In this document: one piece after another, positions 36,882-48,011 of the stretch
Position numbering within the stretch: the first letter of the stretch is position 1
How the letters are laid out: every line of letters begins with the position of its first letter
Source: Hyphomicrobiaceae bacterium
GTDB taxonomy: Bacteria > Pseudomonadota > Alphaproteobacteria > Rhizobiales > Hyphomicrobiaceae
Direction: 5' to 3'
DNA: 64,000 nt
Assembly: GCA_025359185.1 (NCBI GenBank)
Contig: JANYHF010000085.1
Span: 28,620-92,619 of the forward strand
The notes under the pieces: model-generated
Told to the model about the DNA's origin: nothing
Database searches by the model: none
The model's input: the letters and a program-made list of their open reading frames with translations, nothing else
Position numbers and translations under genes: made by a program

Positions 36882-37616
36882 TCATTTTGTCATGACCTGA
36901 GCCCAATGGGTCACCCCGAATTGCGTCAACACCGCGATCAAAAGCCCCCAGCCAAAGCTCATGAACGTGCCGATGATGATATATTCTGTCATCTGCCGTT
37001 GGCTGGGATCCTTCACATCGCCAAAGCGCAGGATGGATTTGGCGGTGATGAGAAAGCCAACGCCCGCCGGCTGCCCGATGAGAATGAGCAGCATTACCAG
37101 CGCGCGCTCCAGGCAGCCGATGGTGAGGCCGCCGCTCTTGAGCCCTTCAATCCCGCCAGCGATTTCCGAGGTGAACCCGCTGGTGGCCTTGCGGATCAGA
37201 ATGGCGCCCATCGTCAGCGAGGCCATCAGCCCGCTGAGCAAACTGAGGCCAACGCAATAGGCGCCAAGCCAGCCAGACGGCAAATGACTGAGCCAGCCTT
37301 GCGCCACCGTTTGGGGAAAGGCCGCCGCCAACCCGCCGAGCACAGCCAGATGGACAGACTGATCCAACGCGAAGGACCGCACCGTGTCCTTGAGCAGATG
37401 GCTCTTGATGGCATCCATGGCAAAATGGGCCGCCATCAGGATCAGCATCAGCAAAACCGGGCAGGCACCGGTCACCACAATCGCCAGCATCCCCACGCGG
37501 ATCACGTGCAGCCCAAGAACCCTGGGATCGCGTTTGTTCTGGACCATCCAAAGCGGCTGAAACTGAAAATCGGCCAACAGATGCGCTGTCAGCAGTGCTA
37601 TGAAGGTCTCGCTCAT
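36882..37616 (-). CDS. DUF3307 multi-TM membrane protein
   Basis: FIALLTAHLLADFQFQPLWMVQNKRD family N-terminus; multiple hydrophobic segments. Confidence 0.8.
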   Translation of the reverse strand: MSETFIALLTAHLLADFQFQPLWMVQNKRDPRVLGLHVIRVGMLAIVVTGACPVLLMLILMAAHFAMDAIKSHLLKDTVRSFALDQSVHLAVLGGLAAAFPQTVAQGWLSHLPSGWLGAYCVGLSLLSGLMASLTMGAILIRKATSGFTSEIAGGIEGLKSGGLTIGCLERALVMLLILIGQPAGVGFLITAKSILRFGDVKDPSQRQMTEYIIIGTFMSFGWGLLIAVLTQFGVTHWAQVMTK

Positions 37617-37644
37617 GCGGCGGCCAACCCCACCGTACTGAATC

Positions 37645-37664
37645 GACAGCTTATTACGCCTGTC
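37645..37664. promoter_or_regulatory. Palindromic operator-like site O2
   Basis: GACAGCTTATTACGCCTGTC (GACAG-N10-CTGTC). Confidence 0.65.
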
Positions 37665-37672
37665 TTGACTCC

Positions 37673-37692
37673 AACAGCCGTATTAGCCTGTC
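37673..37692. promoter_or_regulatory. Palindromic operator-like site O3
   Basis: AACAGCCGTATTAGCCTGTC (AACAG-N10-CTGTC), overlaps the satD-like stop codon. Confidence 0.55.
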
Positions 37693-38393
37693 TCGCCATC
37701 TGTCCCCGCGCCACCAATCGCCTGCCAGTCCATGGTCTCAAACGCCCTGATCGGCTCCAACAGTGTACGCCAGTTGGCCCCCTTCAGAGAATCGGTGACT
37801 GTCTGCTTGGTTACAGACGGGCTGAGCGCCGCCGCGATCCGCTCATGCGTCGGGGTGTCGAGCGTCAAGGCACAGGCGAAGATCTCGGCCTGACGCTGGG
37901 TCCAGGAGCGGACCAGCCCGCTGCTGAGATGAACGGCCACCTGAACCCATTGCGCGAGGGCCCCCGCGCGCGCCGGCAAGGCGGCGGTCAGCTCGAAGTA
38001 ACCGGTCAGATGGTCGAGCGCATGGCCCGAGAGGGTGAACGCCTCGCCGGTTGAGAGCGACAGTCGCGTTGGGTTGATAAGATCAACCGTACCAATCCCG
38101 ATGGCGATCCGCGTATCGAGATCAAGCTCACCGCGGAGCGTCGCGCGGATCAGCAGCGCCACCCGCAGTGCGAGACGCGGGTCCGCCAGCAGCAGCTGCC
38201 AGGCGTCACCGCGAAAGAAATCGGGTTTTCCCGGGACGATGCCGGGGTGCGCTTGCTCGAACCTGGCCGTCACCTGGAGGACCAACTGCCGGGCCGCCAA
38301 AAGTTGTTTCGGCTCCAGTTCTGTCGAACCGATGAGATCGCCGGTGAGGACGGCGGCGACGGCATCCGGGCGCAATGTGAGGTATCTGGTCAA
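37683..38393 (-). CDS. SatD family protein
   Basis: AVLTGDLIGSTEL ... DFFRGDAWQLLL ... IAIGIGTVDL ... FTLSGHALDHL; HTH-like C-terminus HERIAAALSPSVTKQTVTDSLKGANW. Confidence 0.7.
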   Translation of the reverse strand: MTRYLTLRPDAVAAVLTGDLIGSTELEPKQLLAARQLVLQVTARFEQAHPGIVPGKPDFFRGDAWQLLLADPRLALRVALLIRATLRGELDLDTRIAIGIGTVDLINPTRLSLSTGEAFTLSGHALDHLTGYFELTAALPARAGALAQWVQVAVHLSSGLVRSWTQRQAEIFACALTLDTPTHERIAAALSPSVTKQTVTDSLKGANWRTLLEPIRAFETMDWQAIGGAGTDGETG

Positions 38394-38419
38394 GTTGGCG
38401 CCTCAGATCAGCTGAAGTT

Positions 38420-38439
38420 GACAGGCGAATAAACCTGTC
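38420..38439. promoter_or_regulatory. Palindromic operator-like site O1
   Basis: GACAGGCGAATAAACCTGTC, upstream of the satD-like start. Confidence 0.65.
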
Positions 38440-38758
38440 TAGCTTACGACAGCCTCTATTGGCAGTCAACAGCGATTTGCTGATCCAGTCAGATCCCACC
38501 TGACAGGCGCCAGACCACTTGCCCCTTCGCGATGCAACCCAGCACCGGTGCAGTCCGCTGGCGCCAAGACGGCCTTGCCTCAGATACGAGCGTCTTAGAA
38601 TTGAAAGTGGAACACGGTGTCGAGGTTCGAACGAGATGCGGCTGACGTGTGGCTAATCTAAGTATTTCGGGATAGAGTAAAACCAGCGGCAAGCTAGAAG
38701 GGTGTCATACGGTTCACGAACGTTCGGGGAACTATGCACTTGACTGAACAGGTGGCCT

Positions 38759-38959
38759 ATGGCAAATGAGCAGGGACAGGCCGACGCGATTATGATCATC
38801 ACACCCGAGATGATCGCCGCTGGGTTGGAAGCTATGGTGGGGTATGATCCGGGCTGGGATAATGACAGCCATCTCGTCATAGATATTTACATTGCAATGG
38901 CGGCTAGGGCGTGCCGCCAGGCATCAGCAACTTGTGCACGTAGTTCTTGTGATCGTTGA
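38759..38959 (+). CDS. Small passenger ORF of unknown function
   Basis: IITPEMIAAGLEAMVGYDPGWDNDSHLVIDIYIAMAARA looks protein-like; end overlaps the convergent gene. Confidence 0.4.
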   Translation: MANEQGQADAIMIITPEMIAAGLEAMVGYDPGWDNDSHLVIDIYIAMAARACRQASATCARSSCDR

Positions 38960-39407
38960 AGGCGGCTAGCTTGCGAGCCGCATCCTGGACAGCGGTTCGC
39001 GTCGCCGCGATCTTCTCTGCGAAAATGGGGACAGGTTTGCCAGCGCCCTTGCCTCTATAGACGATCGACATGATATTGAATTCCGGTCCCTTGGCAACTA
39101 CTAGCCCGTGGATATAGAGATTGCGGTCAGCGGTTAGCTGGCCCATCTTCTCTTTGATCTTACCGAGCGTATTGCGATATGATGGATTCAGATGTTCCGT
39201 TGCAATTTGGGCCAGCAACTCCCAGCGTCCGCGCATATCCAGTTTGTAGGTGATGTGCTGGCCGACGTCGATGCCTATTCGCAAAAGGCCCCAGATTGTT
39301 CTCTCTACTTCGTATTCAAGAAAGGACCAAGCGCAGCATAAGCGGCCAATTTCGATCATCAATTCGTCTGATACGGGCGGCGGTAGTGTCGGTACGGTCT
39401 GAGCCAT
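38904..39407 (-). CDS. HEPN-like passenger protein
   Basis: Helical protein with WSFLEYEVERTIWGLL and DRNLYIHGLVV (R-x4-H). Confidence 0.55.
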   Translation of the reverse strand: MAQTVPTLPPPVSDELMIEIGRLCCAWSFLEYEVERTIWGLLRIGIDVGQHITYKLDMRGRWELLAQIATEHLNPSYRNTLGKIKEKMGQLTADRNLYIHGLVVAKGPEFNIMSIVYRGKGAGKPVPIFAEKIAATRTAVQDAARKLAAFNDHKNYVHKLLMPGGTP

Positions 39408-39620: not shown

Positions 39621-40001
39621 CTAATTCGCCTTACTTAGTGGTGGTGAGTGGGGCCGGATCGCCACCTGAGTTTGAAGTATGCGGCCTAGTTTCTCAGCTT
39701 CGTGAGGTGGCAGCAAATAGTGAAGCCAGCCGAATCTCGGGTCTCGAAGATGCAAAAGACTGTGACCTTGCATCATATCCGGCTCTGTCGCCCATACTGG
39801 ATCGGGGACGGCCCCGACCTTCTGTCCCGTCGCGAAAACGCGGCCAAACTCCGGCATCATCGAAGCTCGAAATTCTCCAAGATGCAGCAAAAGATCGTCC
39901 ACGCCCGCAGCGTCGAGCTGCAAGGCAACGGGCGGGTTTGTCGGGAAAGTGACGGTAACTGTCTTGAGGTCGTCCTCAAGCTTCCAATTTAGACCGTCCA
40001 T
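39621..40001 (-). CDS. Hypothetical passenger protein
   Basis: MDGLNWKLEDDLKTVTVTFPTNPPVALQLDAAGVDDLLLHLGEFRASM is protein-like; preferred over the overlapping + strand ORF. Confidence 0.55.
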   Translation of the reverse strand: MDGLNWKLEDDLKTVTVTFPTNPPVALQLDAAGVDDLLLHLGEFRASMMPEFGRVFATGQKVGAVPDPVWATEPDMMQGHSLLHLRDPRFGWLHYLLPPHEAEKLGRILQTQVAIRPHSPPLSKAN

Positions 40002-40179: not shown

Positions 40180-41124
40180 TTACGACGCCGTTTCGCGATC
40201 AGGCCGTCGATAGGTCAGGCGCTTGCCGTCGGCGCCCTTGATTGCTGCATTCGCGCGCATCGTGTCGTCGATCCCAAGCTTGATACGGTTGTTCCACTTG
40301 AACGCGGCCTCATCGACATATCGTTGCAGGTGCTGCTCGCTGACGGCGTGGAAGCTGCCGTAGACGCCGCGCTTCAGCAGGGCAAAGAAGCTTTCGACCG
40401 ACTGCGTATGCGTCTTGCCGTCGTCCTTCACGTATTCGCCGGCCGCGTGGTTGACCATGGCATAGTCGGAGAAGTCCTGGCCGGGCGCTACGTTCGCCGA
40501 AGCGGCGTCGGTGTTGAGGATGGAGCTTAGGTCGGCCTTAGCGGTTTGGATCGTCTCGCGAAGCGTCTTTGCCGTCACGTTGGCGATGTGCTTGGCGCGA
40601 ACTTCGCCATCGCGCTCAACCAGCGCATGCACGGCGTGCTTCTTCGGGATCGGCTTGGACCTATGCGCGTTCTTGGCCTTGCCGCCGACGTAGGTTTCGT
40701 CGCTTTCCAGCGTCTTGCCTTCGCCGCCAATCGGGCCGGCCACATCCATATCCGGCGCCATCGCCTCGCGTATGCGCATCGCCATAATCCATGCCGTGCG
40801 ATAAGAGCCGGTGCCGAGCATGCGATGCAACTGATGCGCCGACACGCCTTTCTTGCTTGAGGCCATAATCCGAAAGGCCAGCGCCCACTTGTGCAACGGA
40901 ACGTGGCTGCGCTCCATAACGGTGCCGACGCGGACGGTGAATTTGTCTCGGCATGCGCCGCAATGGAACCAGCCCGGTCCCATGGACTTGCCGGCAAGTG
41001 GCTTCACAGCCTCAGGATTGCCGCAGAAGGGGCAGATAGGCCCGTTCAGCCAACGCTGTTCCTCAAAGAACGCGCGGGCTTTCTCCTCGTCATGAAAGAT
41101 AGCGTTCGTGAGATCGATGGCCAT
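40180..41124 (-). CDS. IS1595-family transposase
   Basis: CPFCGNPEAV...WFHCGACRDKFTVRVGTVMERS zinc-ribbon, DETYVGGKAKNAH, NTDAAS..., HTQSVESFFALLKRGVYGSFH DDE/N core. Confidence 0.93.
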   Translation of the reverse strand: MAIDLTNAIFHDEEKARAFFEEQRWLNGPICPFCGNPEAVKPLAGKSMGPGWFHCGACRDKFTVRVGTVMERSHVPLHKWALAFRIMASSKKGVSAHQLHRMLGTGSYRTAWIMAMRIREAMAPDMDVAGPIGGEGKTLESDETYVGGKAKNAHRSKPIPKKHAVHALVERDGEVRAKHIANVTAKTLRETIQTAKADLSSILNTDAASANVAPGQDFSDYAMVNHAAGEYVKDDGKTHTQSVESFFALLKRGVYGSFHAVSEQHLQRYVDEAAFKWNNRIKLGIDDTMRANAAIKGADGKRLTYRRPDRETAS

Positions 41125-43014: not shown

Positions 43015-44154
43015 ATGACACGTATTTCTCCACAGGCCTACATCATCGCGGCGCGCCGCACAGCCATCGGCCTCACCGGTGGGTTGCATCGGCACCGGCG
43101 CGTCGAAGAGCTCGCGGCGATGGCGTTACAGGCAGCGTTAACCGACGCCCGGTTGAGCCCCAAAGACGTCCAGCAGTTGGTGATCGGCAATGCGTCGGAA
43201 GGCGGCAATCCGGCCCGGTTGATCGGCCTCACCGCAGGGCTGCCGGAGACCTCGCCAGCCTATACCATTGACCGCCAATGCGCCTCTGGACTTGACGCCA
43301 TTCTGACAGCCATCCGGCTGGTGGAAAGCGGTGATGCCGAGGTGGTTGCGGCGGGCGGCGCGGAGTCGCTATCGACCGCGCCCTGGCGGCTCGCCCGGCC
43401 CCACGGCACCGCCCAAACCCCCCGGTTTCTGGAGGCCGGCAATAGCGATTTCGAGGCCGACGAAACGCTGGCCCGGCGCGGGCAGATAACGCGCAAAAAG
43501 CAGGATGCCTATGCGCTTGCCGCGCGCCAGGCGGGAGCGGCGACAGGCGGCGCCAAGGCGGAAATTGTGGCGATGCGGCCCGAGGCGGCAGAGGCCCGCG
43601 ACGAGTGGCTCGGATATGGGTTGGAGGCTGCGGAAATCGCGGATTTACTGCCTTTTTTCGAGGAAGGCGGCACACTGACGAGCGGCAATACCAGCCCATC
43701 GGGAGACGGCGCAGCGATGGTGGTTGTGGTCAGCCAGGCGTGCTATCAGCGGCTCGGCCGGCCACCGGCTTTATGCCGGCTGGCCAGCGCCGCGACAGGG
43801 GCCCGTCCCGGCTCAGAATCTGAGGCGCCGGCGCAGGCTGTCTTGAAGCTCCGTGAACGGCTGAACGGTGACGCCAGACGGCCCGTCGCGACCCACGAAT
43901 TGAACGAAACCTCGGCCGCCCAAGCCATCGCTTTTCGTGACCAACTGGCGATCCCTGCGGACCGCTTTAACCCTGGCGGCGGAGCGCTCGCCCATGGCCG
44001 CCCTTTCGGTGCCAGCAGCGCCGTTGTGGTGGTCCGCCTGTTCGCCCGGCTGCTGGCCTCTGGGGCGTCCATTAAGGGCCAGCTCGGGCTCGCGGCGACC
44101 GGCGCACATGGCGGCCTTGGCGTCGCTGCTCTGTTCGAAACGCACCTCACATGA
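43015..44154 (+). CDS. Divergent thiolase-family protein
   Basis: YIIAARRTAIGLTGG, QLVIGNASEGGNPARLIGLTAGLP, IDRQCASGLDAI, FNPGGGALAHGRPFGAS. Confidence 0.8.
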   Translation: MTRISPQAYIIAARRTAIGLTGGLHRHRRVEELAAMALQAALTDARLSPKDVQQLVIGNASEGGNPARLIGLTAGLPETSPAYTIDRQCASGLDAILTAIRLVESGDAEVVAAGGAESLSTAPWRLARPHGTAQTPRFLEAGNSDFEADETLARRGQITRKKQDAYALAARQAGAATGGAKAEIVAMRPEAAEARDEWLGYGLEAAEIADLLPFFEEGGTLTSGNTSPSGDGAAMVVVVSQACYQRLGRPPALCRLASAATGARPGSESEAPAQAVLKLRERLNGDARRPVATHELNETSAAQAIAFRDQLAIPADRFNPGGGALAHGRPFGASSAVVVVRLFARLLASGASIKGQLGLAATGAHGGLGVAALFETHLT

Positions 44155-44288
44155 GGTCCCCGTTAGGCTTGTTGCAAACCGGGCAACCACCCAATGTGGT
44201 CCCGGCTGGCGTGCCCCCGCAACGGCGTGGTATACTCGACAGGATAAGGCGAAAGCCCTGCCCAGGTGCTAGCGGGAATAGTCTGACA

Positions 44289-47200
44289 ATGCGGTGTTTG
44301 AGTCTCCGGGGCCAAGGGAAAAGAGCCTTGAATCGCTTGGGCTTTATAGCCGCCGGAGCCTATCTGGCCTTGGCTCGCGGGGCGATCGCCGCCGATGCCG
44401 CAAAGAACGTTGCTGCTGCGCCAGATGCGGCCGGCCAACAGGTCACCAATTCGACCGATCTCGTGCGCCTGGTACAGTCCTCGGTAAGCCAGAACCATCT
44501 CCTGCTTTGGATCGGCTATCTTGGCGTCGCCAGTATCGTCAGTACAGGGATCTACAGGTTCGCCAAGTCGTCCTCTGGCAAGAGCCTTGGCAAGCGGCTG
44601 GAAAGCGAGGTGCTCACGAACTGGCGTCTGGCCATGCTCGGCATCACCAGCTTAGCTCTAACCCTCGCGTCAGGCTGGACCACCTGGGACGGGATGACGA
44701 ATTTCACGGGCACCCCGGTCCTCAGTTTCCTGATCACGCTCGGCATCCAAGGCATCATGCTAATCGCCGCCTGGCTGATCGGCGAGAGCTTCGCCGTCGG
44801 CCTCGCCAACGCCGGCAACGGCAACCGCGCCTCTATGCCAGATCGCATCCTCGCTGTGCTCTCGGTGGGGCTACTCGCCATCGGACTTTATTTCGTGTCG
44901 ATGGCGAGCCTGCAACGCGGCACAATCGAGTTCATCGACAGCATGGTCAGCCGGCACAAGAGTGAGCTGGCGCTACCGATCCCGACAACGAATTTCCGTA
45001 TTCTGATCTCCTTAGCTTTCTCGGCTCTGCTGACGGCGCTGCTGGTGACCCAAAAGGAGATTTACGAACCTTATCTGCGCGGTATCAAGGCGATCCTGAA
45101 AACGCTGCCGATCTGGTTCATGTTTCTCGCCTGCGCGATAACATCCGTATTTTTCTCATTCGACTCGCTGTTCTCAACGATTTTCCCCGCTCAGGAGCGC
45201 GAGCGGGCCGCCCAACTGCGCACCACCAATCAGGTCGCAGGCATCGTCGGAGACCTCGGCAGCACCATCACAAAGCGCCAGGGCGCGGGCATTGACGCGC
45301 TGTTTTCCAGCTCCGAATGGAAGGACTATTCGGACCGCATCACCGACATCATCACCATCGCCCGCGCTGCGCCCGATCAGATCGCGGAGTTGGCGCGCAA
45401 AGAGCTGGAGGACCAGCAATCCGTACGCGCTGGATTGCAGGAGCGCAAAGCCTCGGCATCGAGCCAACAGGCCGGTATCAACAAGCGAAAGGCAGAGCTG
45501 CTGGGCGATGTCGGCAAGCTCAAGGAGGAGGTGCCACCGGTCGCCGCCGAAGTCGACCGGCTGAAGGGCGAAGTCTTCAAGGAAGAGAGCGAAATTCTCG
45601 CGAAAAAGGCCGAAATGCAGGCCGAAGCGGGCGGTGTCGGCGGATCCCTGAAGGCGGGCCAGGGGCCGGAATTTGCCAAGCGCCGCAAGGAGCTGGATGA
45701 CTTCGCCAAGCTCAAGGCGATAACCGAAAGTCAGCTCAAGGATCGGGTGGCGCAGCTTAAAGACAAGCGGGATCGCGTGGCAGCAGCCGAAGCTGAACTG
45801 GCGCAGATCGACGGCGAACTCGGCAAACTCACCGGCGAGATGGAGGTTGCGGACAAGCAGATCGCGGTGGCAACGGTCCCCAAGGAGGGCGGCTCTCTGG
45901 CAGCCACCAAGGAAACCATGGCGGTCACCGGTTTCAGCTCACTGGATGATGCTTTTGCACAGTTCCGTCAGCGCCCTGAGCGAAGATCGTTCGATGCCAT
46001 CCAGCAGCAATGTGCAGCGCTGCTGGCGGTGTTTGACAAGGTGCCCGCCATCAAGGCGGCAGCGCAGGTCAAGAACGTTCGCTGCGATCCGAGCGTTGTC
46101 GCCGAGCCGGTCGCGCGCATCCTGGCGCTGAATGAGGGCCAGCTTTCATTCAAAGAGCGTTGCGCCAAGCCCGAAAGCCTGCCGCAAACCACCGTCGATG
46201 ACCTGCTGACGTTCGGCCAGCAATGCGTGCAGACGTCGGGTCTCGCCGGCCAGGATACGGCGTTCTACCGCTCACAGATCAACAGTATCGGCCTTAACCG
46301 GGACGACAAGGCGCACCGGTTCGTAGTCAGCTGGAATGCCTTCCTCGATGGCAACCGGCTCGCCTATCTGGCACTGGGCATTGCCATCGCGTTAGATGGC
46401 CTTGTTTTCATGTCAGGGCTGTTCGGCGCCAACGCCGTGAGTTCGCCGCTGGTCCGGCTGCCGTCGGCAGGCGGACGGTCACCCGGCGATCTTGAAGCCC
46501 GCATGTACGCGGCGCTTGGCAATGACATCTATGGCAATGCCAGGCGAGTACTCAATGCTTTGCATCCAATCAAGGCGCGTGATGGCTTTGTTTCCGAAGT
46601 TCGCTTGGCCGGTCAGGCCCCCAAATATGCCGACGAAATCCGCAGTGTACTGAGTGCAGCTGCCGAACTTGGCGCCGTCCGCCCGGACAGCCGTGAGGAT
46701 GGCGTCTATCTGGTGCGCGGCGAACTCAGCGAATTCCTGAGCAAGGCCTGCCATCGCGAATTGCGCACCAATCCGAATGTAAAAAGGCAGGCCGAACTGG
46801 CGCGTGAAAGCGAAATTGCTGACCATGCCGAGTACGAAAAGAAGCGGCACGGCGAGATGGAAGGTGAGCGGCTTCGCGCTGCCGAAGCGCAGCAGGACGA
46901 ACGCGATCTGCAACGCCGTGCGCGGGCGCTGGAGCCCGTGCTGAAAGCTGCGCTTTTGCCGGACCGCATCGAGGACCGGGAGGCCCTGTTTCATCAGGCG
47001 TCGCAGGTGTTGGCGCATATGCGGCCAACGGCTGGCGGCAAGGATGGTGCCGAGGGCTTCACGTCCGAGATCGAGCTCGGCGAGCGGGAACAGAACGTGC
47101 TGCTGTTGCGCAGTGTGCTAAACGCCGCCGCGACGCGAAAGGCCGTGGTCAAGGCTTCACAAGCGGCCCCGGAACTCTATCTGATCCAGCCTGAATTCAC

Positions 47201-48011
47201 GCTCTGCCTGACGGCCATCCGCGTCAAGGCCTACGAGGATTGGCAGCAGCGCGCCAACAAGCCAAAAATGTTCCCGTGGCTGCGCAGCCGCGATGTGACG
47301 CCAGCCAACCTGACCATTACACCTCCTGCCGTGCCTCGCAATGGCGCTCCATCAGCGGGCATCTTGTCCGGACGGCTGCCCTCAGCCAAACCTGCAATCC
47401 GGTCTGTGCCAGCGCCACCTTCTGCGTCCAGCCAAGAGATTTCCGCAGCCACGGCGTCAACCGTCCGGGCGATGTTCAATGGTCCCGCCCAAACGCAAGT
47501 CGTCGATCCAGAGACACTGGATGCCTTGAACGCCTGGGCCAAACGCAATGCGTTCAGCGATCTAGAGCTCGGCACAGTGCATGAGTTCATCAAGACCGAT
47601 TGGTCAGCGCAGCTGTCGGCCTATCTCGGGCGTATCCTAGGCACACAACGCCTGGCCGACAACGCTTCCGCTGCCCGAGAGCAGGCGCGCAGCCAATTAC
47701 AATCGTTCCTGGACTCAACACCCGAGGGCCGAGTGAACGACGCCGAAACGGCCATCATTGCGCGTGCGTTCTACGATACCTATCTGCTTGACAGTTTGAA
47801 TGCGTCTTTGAGCGTGACCATCGACGGCTATGCGAGCCGCAAAGTGCCTGGCTCGGTCAATGGCGAATACTACGACAGCCTCTGCGAGCTGAAGGACGCC
47901 ATTGGAATGCTACCGGAAGGCGCGGATAACACGTTCCGCGTCTGGGACCGGGCCATCGCCAATCTCAACCGTCTTGACGACACCAATAGCCAACACCGCG
48001 TCGCGGTTTAG
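44289..48011 (+). CDS. Large multi-TM, coiled-coil orphan protein (about 1,240 aa)
   Basis: Long intact ORF with several hydrophobic segments, Glu/Lys-rich coiled-coil region, four-Cys segment, another TM and a soluble C-terminal half; start is inferred. Confidence 0.75.
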   Translation: MRCLSLRGQGKRALNRLGFIAAGAYLALARGAIAADAAKNVAAAPDAAGQQVTNSTDLVRLVQSSVSQNHLLLWIGYLGVASIVSTGIYRFAKSSSGKSLGKRLESEVLTNWRLAMLGITSLALTLASGWTTWDGMTNFTGTPVLSFLITLGIQGIMLIAAWLIGESFAVGLANAGNGNRASMPDRILAVLSVGLLAIGLYFVSMASLQRGTIEFIDSMVSRHKSELALPIPTTNFRILISLAFSALLTALLVTQKEIYEPYLRGIKAILKTLPIWFMFLACAITSVFFSFDSLFSTIFPAQERERAAQLRTTNQVAGIVGDLGSTITKRQGAGIDALFSSSEWKDYSDRITDIITIARAAPDQIAELARKELEDQQSVRAGLQERKASASSQQAGINKRKAELLGDVGKLKEEVPPVAAEVDRLKGEVFKEESEILAKKAEMQAEAGGVGGSLKAGQGPEFAKRRKELDDFAKLKAITESQLKDRVAQLKDKRDRVAAAEAELAQIDGELGKLTGEMEVADKQIAVATVPKEGGSLAATKETMAVTGFSSLDDAFAQFRQRPERRSFDAIQQQCAALLAVFDKVPAIKAAAQVKNVRCDPSVVAEPVARILALNEGQLSFKERCAKPESLPQTTVDDLLTFGQQCVQTSGLAGQDTAFYRSQINSIGLNRDDKAHRFVVSWNAFLDGNRLAYLALGIAIALDGLVFMSGLFGANAVSSPLVRLPSAGGRSPGDLEARMYAALGNDIYGNARRVLNALHPIKARDGFVSEVRLAGQAPKYADEIRSVLSAAAELGAVRPDSREDGVYLVRGELSEFLSKACHRELRTNPNVKRQAELARESEIADHAEYEKKRHGEMEGERLRAAEAQQDERDLQRRARALEPVLKAALLPDRIEDREALFHQASQVLAHMRPTAGGKDGAEGFTSEIELGEREQNVLLLRSVLNAAATRKAVVKASQAAPELYLIQPEFTLCLTAIRVKAYEDWQQRANKPKMFPWLRSRDVTPANLTITPPAVPRNGAPSAGILSGRLPSAKPAIRSVPAPPSASSQEISAATASTVRAMFNGPAQTQVVDPETLDALNAWAKRNAFSDLELGTVHEFIKTDWSAQLSAYLGRILGTQRLADNASAAREQARSQLQSFLDSTPEGRVNDAETAIIARAFYDTYLLDSLNASLSVTIDGYASRKVPGSVNGEYYDSLCELKDAIGMLPEGADNTFRVWDRAIANLNRLDDTNSQHRVAV

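Follow-up and report, generated by a model that had tools for sequence, protein, structure and literature searches.

The closest described relatives of the locus studied here are the protein families SatD (PF16264) and DUF3307 (PF11750), two labels that many genome annotations carry with no function assigned. SatD proteins have a cyclase-like fold with the motifs GD...S and GD, and an HTH C-terminus. The satD gene of Streptococcus pyogenes is reported to be essential in transposon screens, yet it is an accessory gene (PMC11323703), and literature quoted in that paper traces the name of the S. mutans sat genes to acid tolerance. In Pycsar (PycC with PycTM or PycTIR) a cyclase-fold protein is encoded beside a membrane protein, and a cyclic-nucleotide-binding domain is described for PycTIR (PMC11224242). 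In the open full-text journal articles that we searched, no study treats SatD and DUF3307 as a paired system.

The stretch analysed, hereafter the window, comprises 64,000 nucleotides from a Hyphomicrobiaceae bacterium. It contains a SatD-like gene followed by a gene for a DUF3307-type membrane protein, Table 1. The ORF coordinates agree with the initial annotation, which had described two minus-strand genes 66 bp apart. The GC content of the pair is 61.8%, compared with 62.0% for the window. The promoter and any operator of the SatD-like gene would be expected in the region directly upstream of it, where our search gave no convincing operator; the repeats found are weak, and so is the single promoter pattern, which lies far upstream. 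Two short ORFs further upstream (38904-39407 and 39621-40001, minus strand) are without Pfam matches, and beyond them are an IS1595-type transposase (40180-41124) and ispG/gcpE. The downstream neighbour is a flavin monooxygenase-like gene, and within the window no neighbour of the pair is clearly defensive. Elsewhere in the window, a 1286-aa protein (44151-48011, plus strand) has no Pfam match at E 0.001.

Table 1. Features of the SatD-like/DUF3307 locus, in window positions; residue numbers refer to the respective protein.
Feature	Position	Strand	Description	Evidence
SatD-like gene	37683..38393	-	236 aa, TTG start	ORF call
DUF3307-type membrane protein gene	36882..37616	-	244 aa, ATG start	ORF call, Pfam, AF2
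Intergenic gap of the pair	37617..37682	.	66 bp between the two genes	
Region upstream of SatD-like gene	38394..38903	.	~510 bp, GC 53.7%	
N-terminal DUF3307 domain	37284..37616	-	residues about 1-111	conservation, loop charges
C-terminal SatD-partner domain	36882..37283	-	residues about 112-244	conservation, hhalign
Cyclase-fold domain of SatD-like protein			residues about 10-140; D19 and D63 invariant	HMM, AF2, Foldseek, conservation
Helical linker and winged-HTH of SatD-like protein			residues about 145-220	AF2, HMM

As a single query, the SatD-like protein of the window has no match in Pfam, NCBIfam or PADLOC. A profile of this protein and 50 relatives matches Ma1120, an adenylyl cyclase of class III, with an E-value of 1.3e-4. 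In that alignment TGDlvkS stands opposite DIeeS, and RGD opposite the second GD. In a profile-profile comparison the family matches the PF00211 domain alignment with an E-value of 1.8e-6. The AlphaFold2 model has a pLDDT of 95.2, and Foldseek gives 21 matches at E <= 0.001, every one of them a class III cyclase and the Pycsar cUMP synthase 7r65 among them. The model (pLDDT 95), the Foldseek matches and the match to Ma1120 bear out the cyclase fold that had been proposed from short motifs. The quoted motifs are all present: D-L-I-G-S-T lies in VLTGDLIGST (with D19), FFRGDA contains D63, IAIGIG falls in a predicted strand (94-106), and the C-terminal HERIAAALSPSVTKQTVTDSLKGANW corresponds to predicted helices 183-189 and 196-205. 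These helices, and the matches of the C-terminus of the profile to winged-helix regulators, agree with the HTH-like C-terminus noted earlier. By computation, the protein consists of a class III cyclase fold that has kept its metal sites, and a DNA-binding winged helix.

The label SatD-like needs some qualification. Pfam SatD is matched by nine of the 50 relatives and not by the window protein itself, and the label holds as homology to those relatives. The window branch reads RGD(W/F)Q and SG at the positions of GDEFQ and AR in the classical SatD branch. Profiles made from the window relatives recover annotated SatD proteins and compact-branch members (see below) above the Pfam cut-off.

G18, D19, S23, G62 and D63 are kept in 59 of 59 SatD-like sequences, among them the two metal-binding aspartates that the initial annotation had pointed out; R61 is conserved in 98% and R95 in 93%. 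The fold and these two aspartates are shared with class III cyclases (Ma1120, Rv1900c, 7r65), while the region after strand 4 differs and the winged helix is an addition. Neither an Asn at the transition-state position (the residue 120 equivalent) nor a Lys at the purine-selecting position is found in any of the 59 sequences, and an Arg at the other transition-state position, four residues after residue 120, is present in 28; the first two motifs align reliably, and the Asn and Arg positions were set manually because the automatic profile alignment is unreliable beyond strand 4. Since the catalytic Asn and the purine-selecting Lys are absent throughout, we regard the protein as cyclase-like and not as a canonical cyclase. 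Judged from these alignments, canonical cyclase catalysis is doubtful, as the remark on a possibly degenerate fold had anticipated.

The two genes are strictly linked. A full SatD-like match occurs in 25 of the 399 genomes of a phylum sample, and the partner adjoins in each of the 25; on GTDB contigs it lies directly downstream in 54/54 SatD-like loci with room for it. Among the 45 genomes of the phylum sample with DUF3307-type matches, 25 are paired, four have a long unpaired protein and 16 have short proteins with the N-domain only. The gap between homologous gene pairs ranges from -8 (an overlap) to 225 bp, strand and order are constant, start/stop overlap is frequent and the regulator gene is first in the operon. 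Haloarchaea carry the pair with a 4-bp overlap, and it is also present in Fusobacterium (Fusobacteriota), in Bacteroidota including Segatella, and on Vibrio-related plasmids. The conservation of the SatD-like motifs and the recurrence of the pair across phyla far exceed chance. The distances of SatD and its partner correlate with r = 0.76, which also reflects the shared history of linked genes. The co-occurrence that the initial annotation had proposed to check is thus confirmed, and neither of the observations it had named as contrary, a lack of a cyclase domain or of constant aspartates and a lack of linkage elsewhere, was made.

In the membrane protein, Pfam DUF3307 covers residues 5-93 only (E 3e-13, 50.2 bits against a cut-off of 23), less than half of the 244 residues. 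The AF2 model has eight long helices and a pLDDT of 95.9. A PDB fold search with this model gave no match, and in BFVD the sole structural matches are short DUF3307 proteins of phages, at the N-terminal domain. Each half of the protein has a conserved set of residues. The N-terminal set is rich in His and Asp (H12, D16, Q20, H37, H64, D68, D85, Q86, H89). The C-terminal motifs are IGxLER (166-171), AKSxLRF (192-198), EYxIxGT (211-217) and S220, with a broader consensus across pairs of IGxLER / AKSxxRF / EYxxxGT, and E170, R171, K193, R197, G216 and S220 are invariant in 59/59 membrane partners. Both sets would face the cytosolic side, with the topology judged from loop charges and helix positions alone. 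The His/Asp-rich N-terminal domain appears to resemble a metal or hydrolase site. A YdjM-type hydrolase was considered and dropped, since the profile comparison falls short of significance (19 columns, E 0.098), and for that reason we propose a metal or hydrolase function only conditionally. DUF3307 proteins that consist of the N-domain alone, some 105-150 aa long, are found in phages (BFVD A0A7G7WXF7, A0A8S5PQC1), where they may represent a viral copy of the output domain; solo short genes of this kind are also those of the 16 genomes in the phylum sample.

The conserved partner of SatD, described here for the first time, is by sequence conservation the C-domain behind DUF3307, for which there is no Pfam model among those searched, and not the Pfam DUF3307 domain. 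In SatD-paired proteins the C-terminal motif persists also where the His/Asp set of the N-terminus has degenerated or the whole N-domain is gone. The N-domain is missing in seven SatD-paired membrane proteins and present in the SatD-less ones; in the four long SatD-less proteins S194, R197, F198 and Y212 are lost while the His/Asp set is intact. In compact pairs, SatD is accompanied by a membrane protein of 127 to ~160 aa that consists of the C-domain only and is homologous to the window C-domain (hhalign E 1.9e-20), not to the N-domain. The three SatD proteins of compact pairs that were run against Pfam all exceed the SatD gathering score. The computations show that the C-domain goes with SatD in bacteria and archaea alike, and that the N-terminal DUF3307 domain is separable. 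The name DUF3307 membrane protein in the initial annotation is correct for the N-terminal domain, which is above the Pfam cut-off, and misses the part that is coupled to SatD; this C-domain is not described in PF11750, and solo DUF3307 proteins have lost it or its motif. The long SatD-less proteins (L039 in G372, L231 in G445, L232 in G317, L233 in G342) belong to one alphaproteobacterial family, and where the locus was inspected (L039 and L232) Fe-S assembly-type genes flank them on both sides.

The pair is patchy in the order of the window, with carriers in 2 of 150 genomes. In the tree, the window clade intermixes Alphaproteobacteria, Verrucomicrobiota, Acidobacteriota, Thermodesulfobacteriota, KSB1, Fibrobacterota and Planctomycetota; several of its nodes are starred, and KSB1 and Thermodesulfobacteriota are sisters with starred support. 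The mixing of phyla at starred nodes suggests that the pair moves by horizontal transfer; single cases of mixing may stem from mis-binned contigs. It is also the main cargo of 3.77-kb plasmids of E. coli and Klebsiella. The plasmid pEC34A (L148, 1792-3481), like six others from Klebsiella (3.77-4.4 kb), is tiny and ColE1-like and carries a divergent SatD-DUF3307 pair, a natural test case that is simple to clone. No near match of the pair DNA was found in E. coli chromosomes. A direct search for SatD in phage records and viral contigs found none; four viral or prophage-like contigs (L143, L144, L145, L146), identified through their DUF3307 matches, have SatD adjoining.

We interpret the pair as a regulator that binds both nucleotide and DNA, with a membrane receptor/output protein coupled to it, and give this reading a probability of about 0.5. 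The binding of a ligand, the binding of DNA and the contact between SatD and the membrane protein are all inferred. According to this model, a dimer of the SatD-like protein would bind NTP and Mg2+, with D19, D63 and the phosphate arginine R95 retained. Because the catalytic Asn is gone, it would act as a sensor rather than as a canonical cyclase. The winged helix would control transcription, probably of its own operon. The SatD-like protein would couple to the Lys/Arg/Glu-rich C-domain at the cytosolic face, either by direct contact or through a small nucleotide product, and this coupling would switch the His/Asp-rich N-terminal domain, the putative membrane output. In our view the module is passed on horizontally and probably functions in a conditional response to stress or to phage conflict, having settled into a chromosomal role in Rhodobacterales. 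Three other explanations overlap with this regulator-receptor reading.

The best placed of the three is a housekeeping role, in which a nucleotide-responsive regulator would act in membrane, acid or metal homeostasis and have no part in conflict. Of the flanking proteins tallied with PADLOC and Pfam (121 and 126), most are unrelated to defence; most chromosomal copies are flanked by ordinary metabolic genes, and in Rhodobacterales the pair is stably located between FeS_assembly_P and Fe-S_biosyn genes. The acid-tolerance name of the S. mutans sat genes, as quoted in PMC11323703, also fits. A general defence enrichment of the flanks was dropped in view of these tallies. However, the patchy occurrence in the order of the window, the mixing of phyla in the tree and the copies carried by small plasmids or located within defence islands do not fit housekeeping alone, and we consider this explanation rather unlikely.

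Some copies are found close to known defence genes. On a plasmid of Sphingomonas (S. insulae) the pair is near GajA and GajB (Gabija, E < 1e-229), with a ThsB-like TIR gene (8e-97) and a Pycsar operon beside it. In Brevundimonas bacteroides it adjoins PycC (1.5e-212), on an Enterobacter kobei plasmid it is beside GajB (1.5e-232) and a DUF4365 protein, and on an Agrobacterium pAt it is near DUF4365 and HEPN genes. The DUF4365-linked pairs are on two unrelated plasmids (L152:8123-11980 in Enterobacter kobei, L248:862-2652 in Agrobacterium pAt), one with a long partner and one with a compact partner. Since some copies adjoin Gabija, Thoeris-like and Pycsar genes, a defence role of the pair is possible; since most chromosomal copies have ordinary metabolic flanks, it is unproven and a role in conflict would not be general. 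In a Pycsar-like form of this role, the SatD-like protein would respond to phage infection by making a nucleotide, cyclic or other, that opens the membrane effector and so leads to abortive infection. Such a role would suit the class III cyclase fold with its invariant metal-binding aspartates, the island copies above and the 3.77-kb plasmids with the pair as main cargo, and some SatD pairs have a genuine Pycsar operon nearby. Nevertheless, the catalytic set is incomplete (no transition-state Asn or purine Lys, Arg in 28/59), the SatD protein carries a DNA-binding domain unlike PycC, and chromosomal neighbours are mostly metabolic. A PADLOC search gave no match at E <= 1, and thus none to the PycC profile, and in a Pfam search of the membrane partner DUF3307 was the sole domain, with no cyclic-nucleotide-binding domain. 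By these two criteria the pair is not Pycsar, and the parallel with Pycsar architecture drawn in the initial annotation does not extend to membership. A Pycsar-like mechanism is in our opinion improbable.

A toxin-antitoxin-like module that stabilises plasmids and islands, with a toxic membrane protein repressed or neutralised by the SatD-like protein, would account for the regulator-first operon with its frequent start/stop overlap, for the tiny ColE1-like plasmids and for an accessory S. pyogenes satD being reported as essential (PMC11323703), as an antitoxin would be, but it is equally improbable, as the streptococcal SatD is a distant relative, vertical stability between Fe-S assembly genes in Rhodobacterales is unusual for an addiction module and the invariant metal-binding aspartates require another explanation.

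For the regulator-receptor reading, the significance lies in joining two families that were already named. Together they appear, from their sequences and genomic linkage, to form a widespread and mobile signalling unit of a cyclase-fold protein with a membrane partner. More broadly, SatD and the unannotated C-domain might represent nucleotide signalling common to bacteria and archaea, in which a divergent cyclase-fold enzyme or sensor with a DNA-binding tail signals to a dedicated membrane receptor domain that is fused to variable outputs, for example the DUF3307 His/Asp domain, and some versions at least might act against phages; we put this forward as a tentative proposal. Mutable residues are now named for the SatD-like protein and for its partner, and natural minimal versions exist, i.e. 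the compact SatD with a ~150-aa membrane protein and the 3.77-kb E. coli plasmid. With a cyclase fold that has invariant metal sites and a conserved membrane-domain partner, two labels of unknown function become a testable signalling pair.
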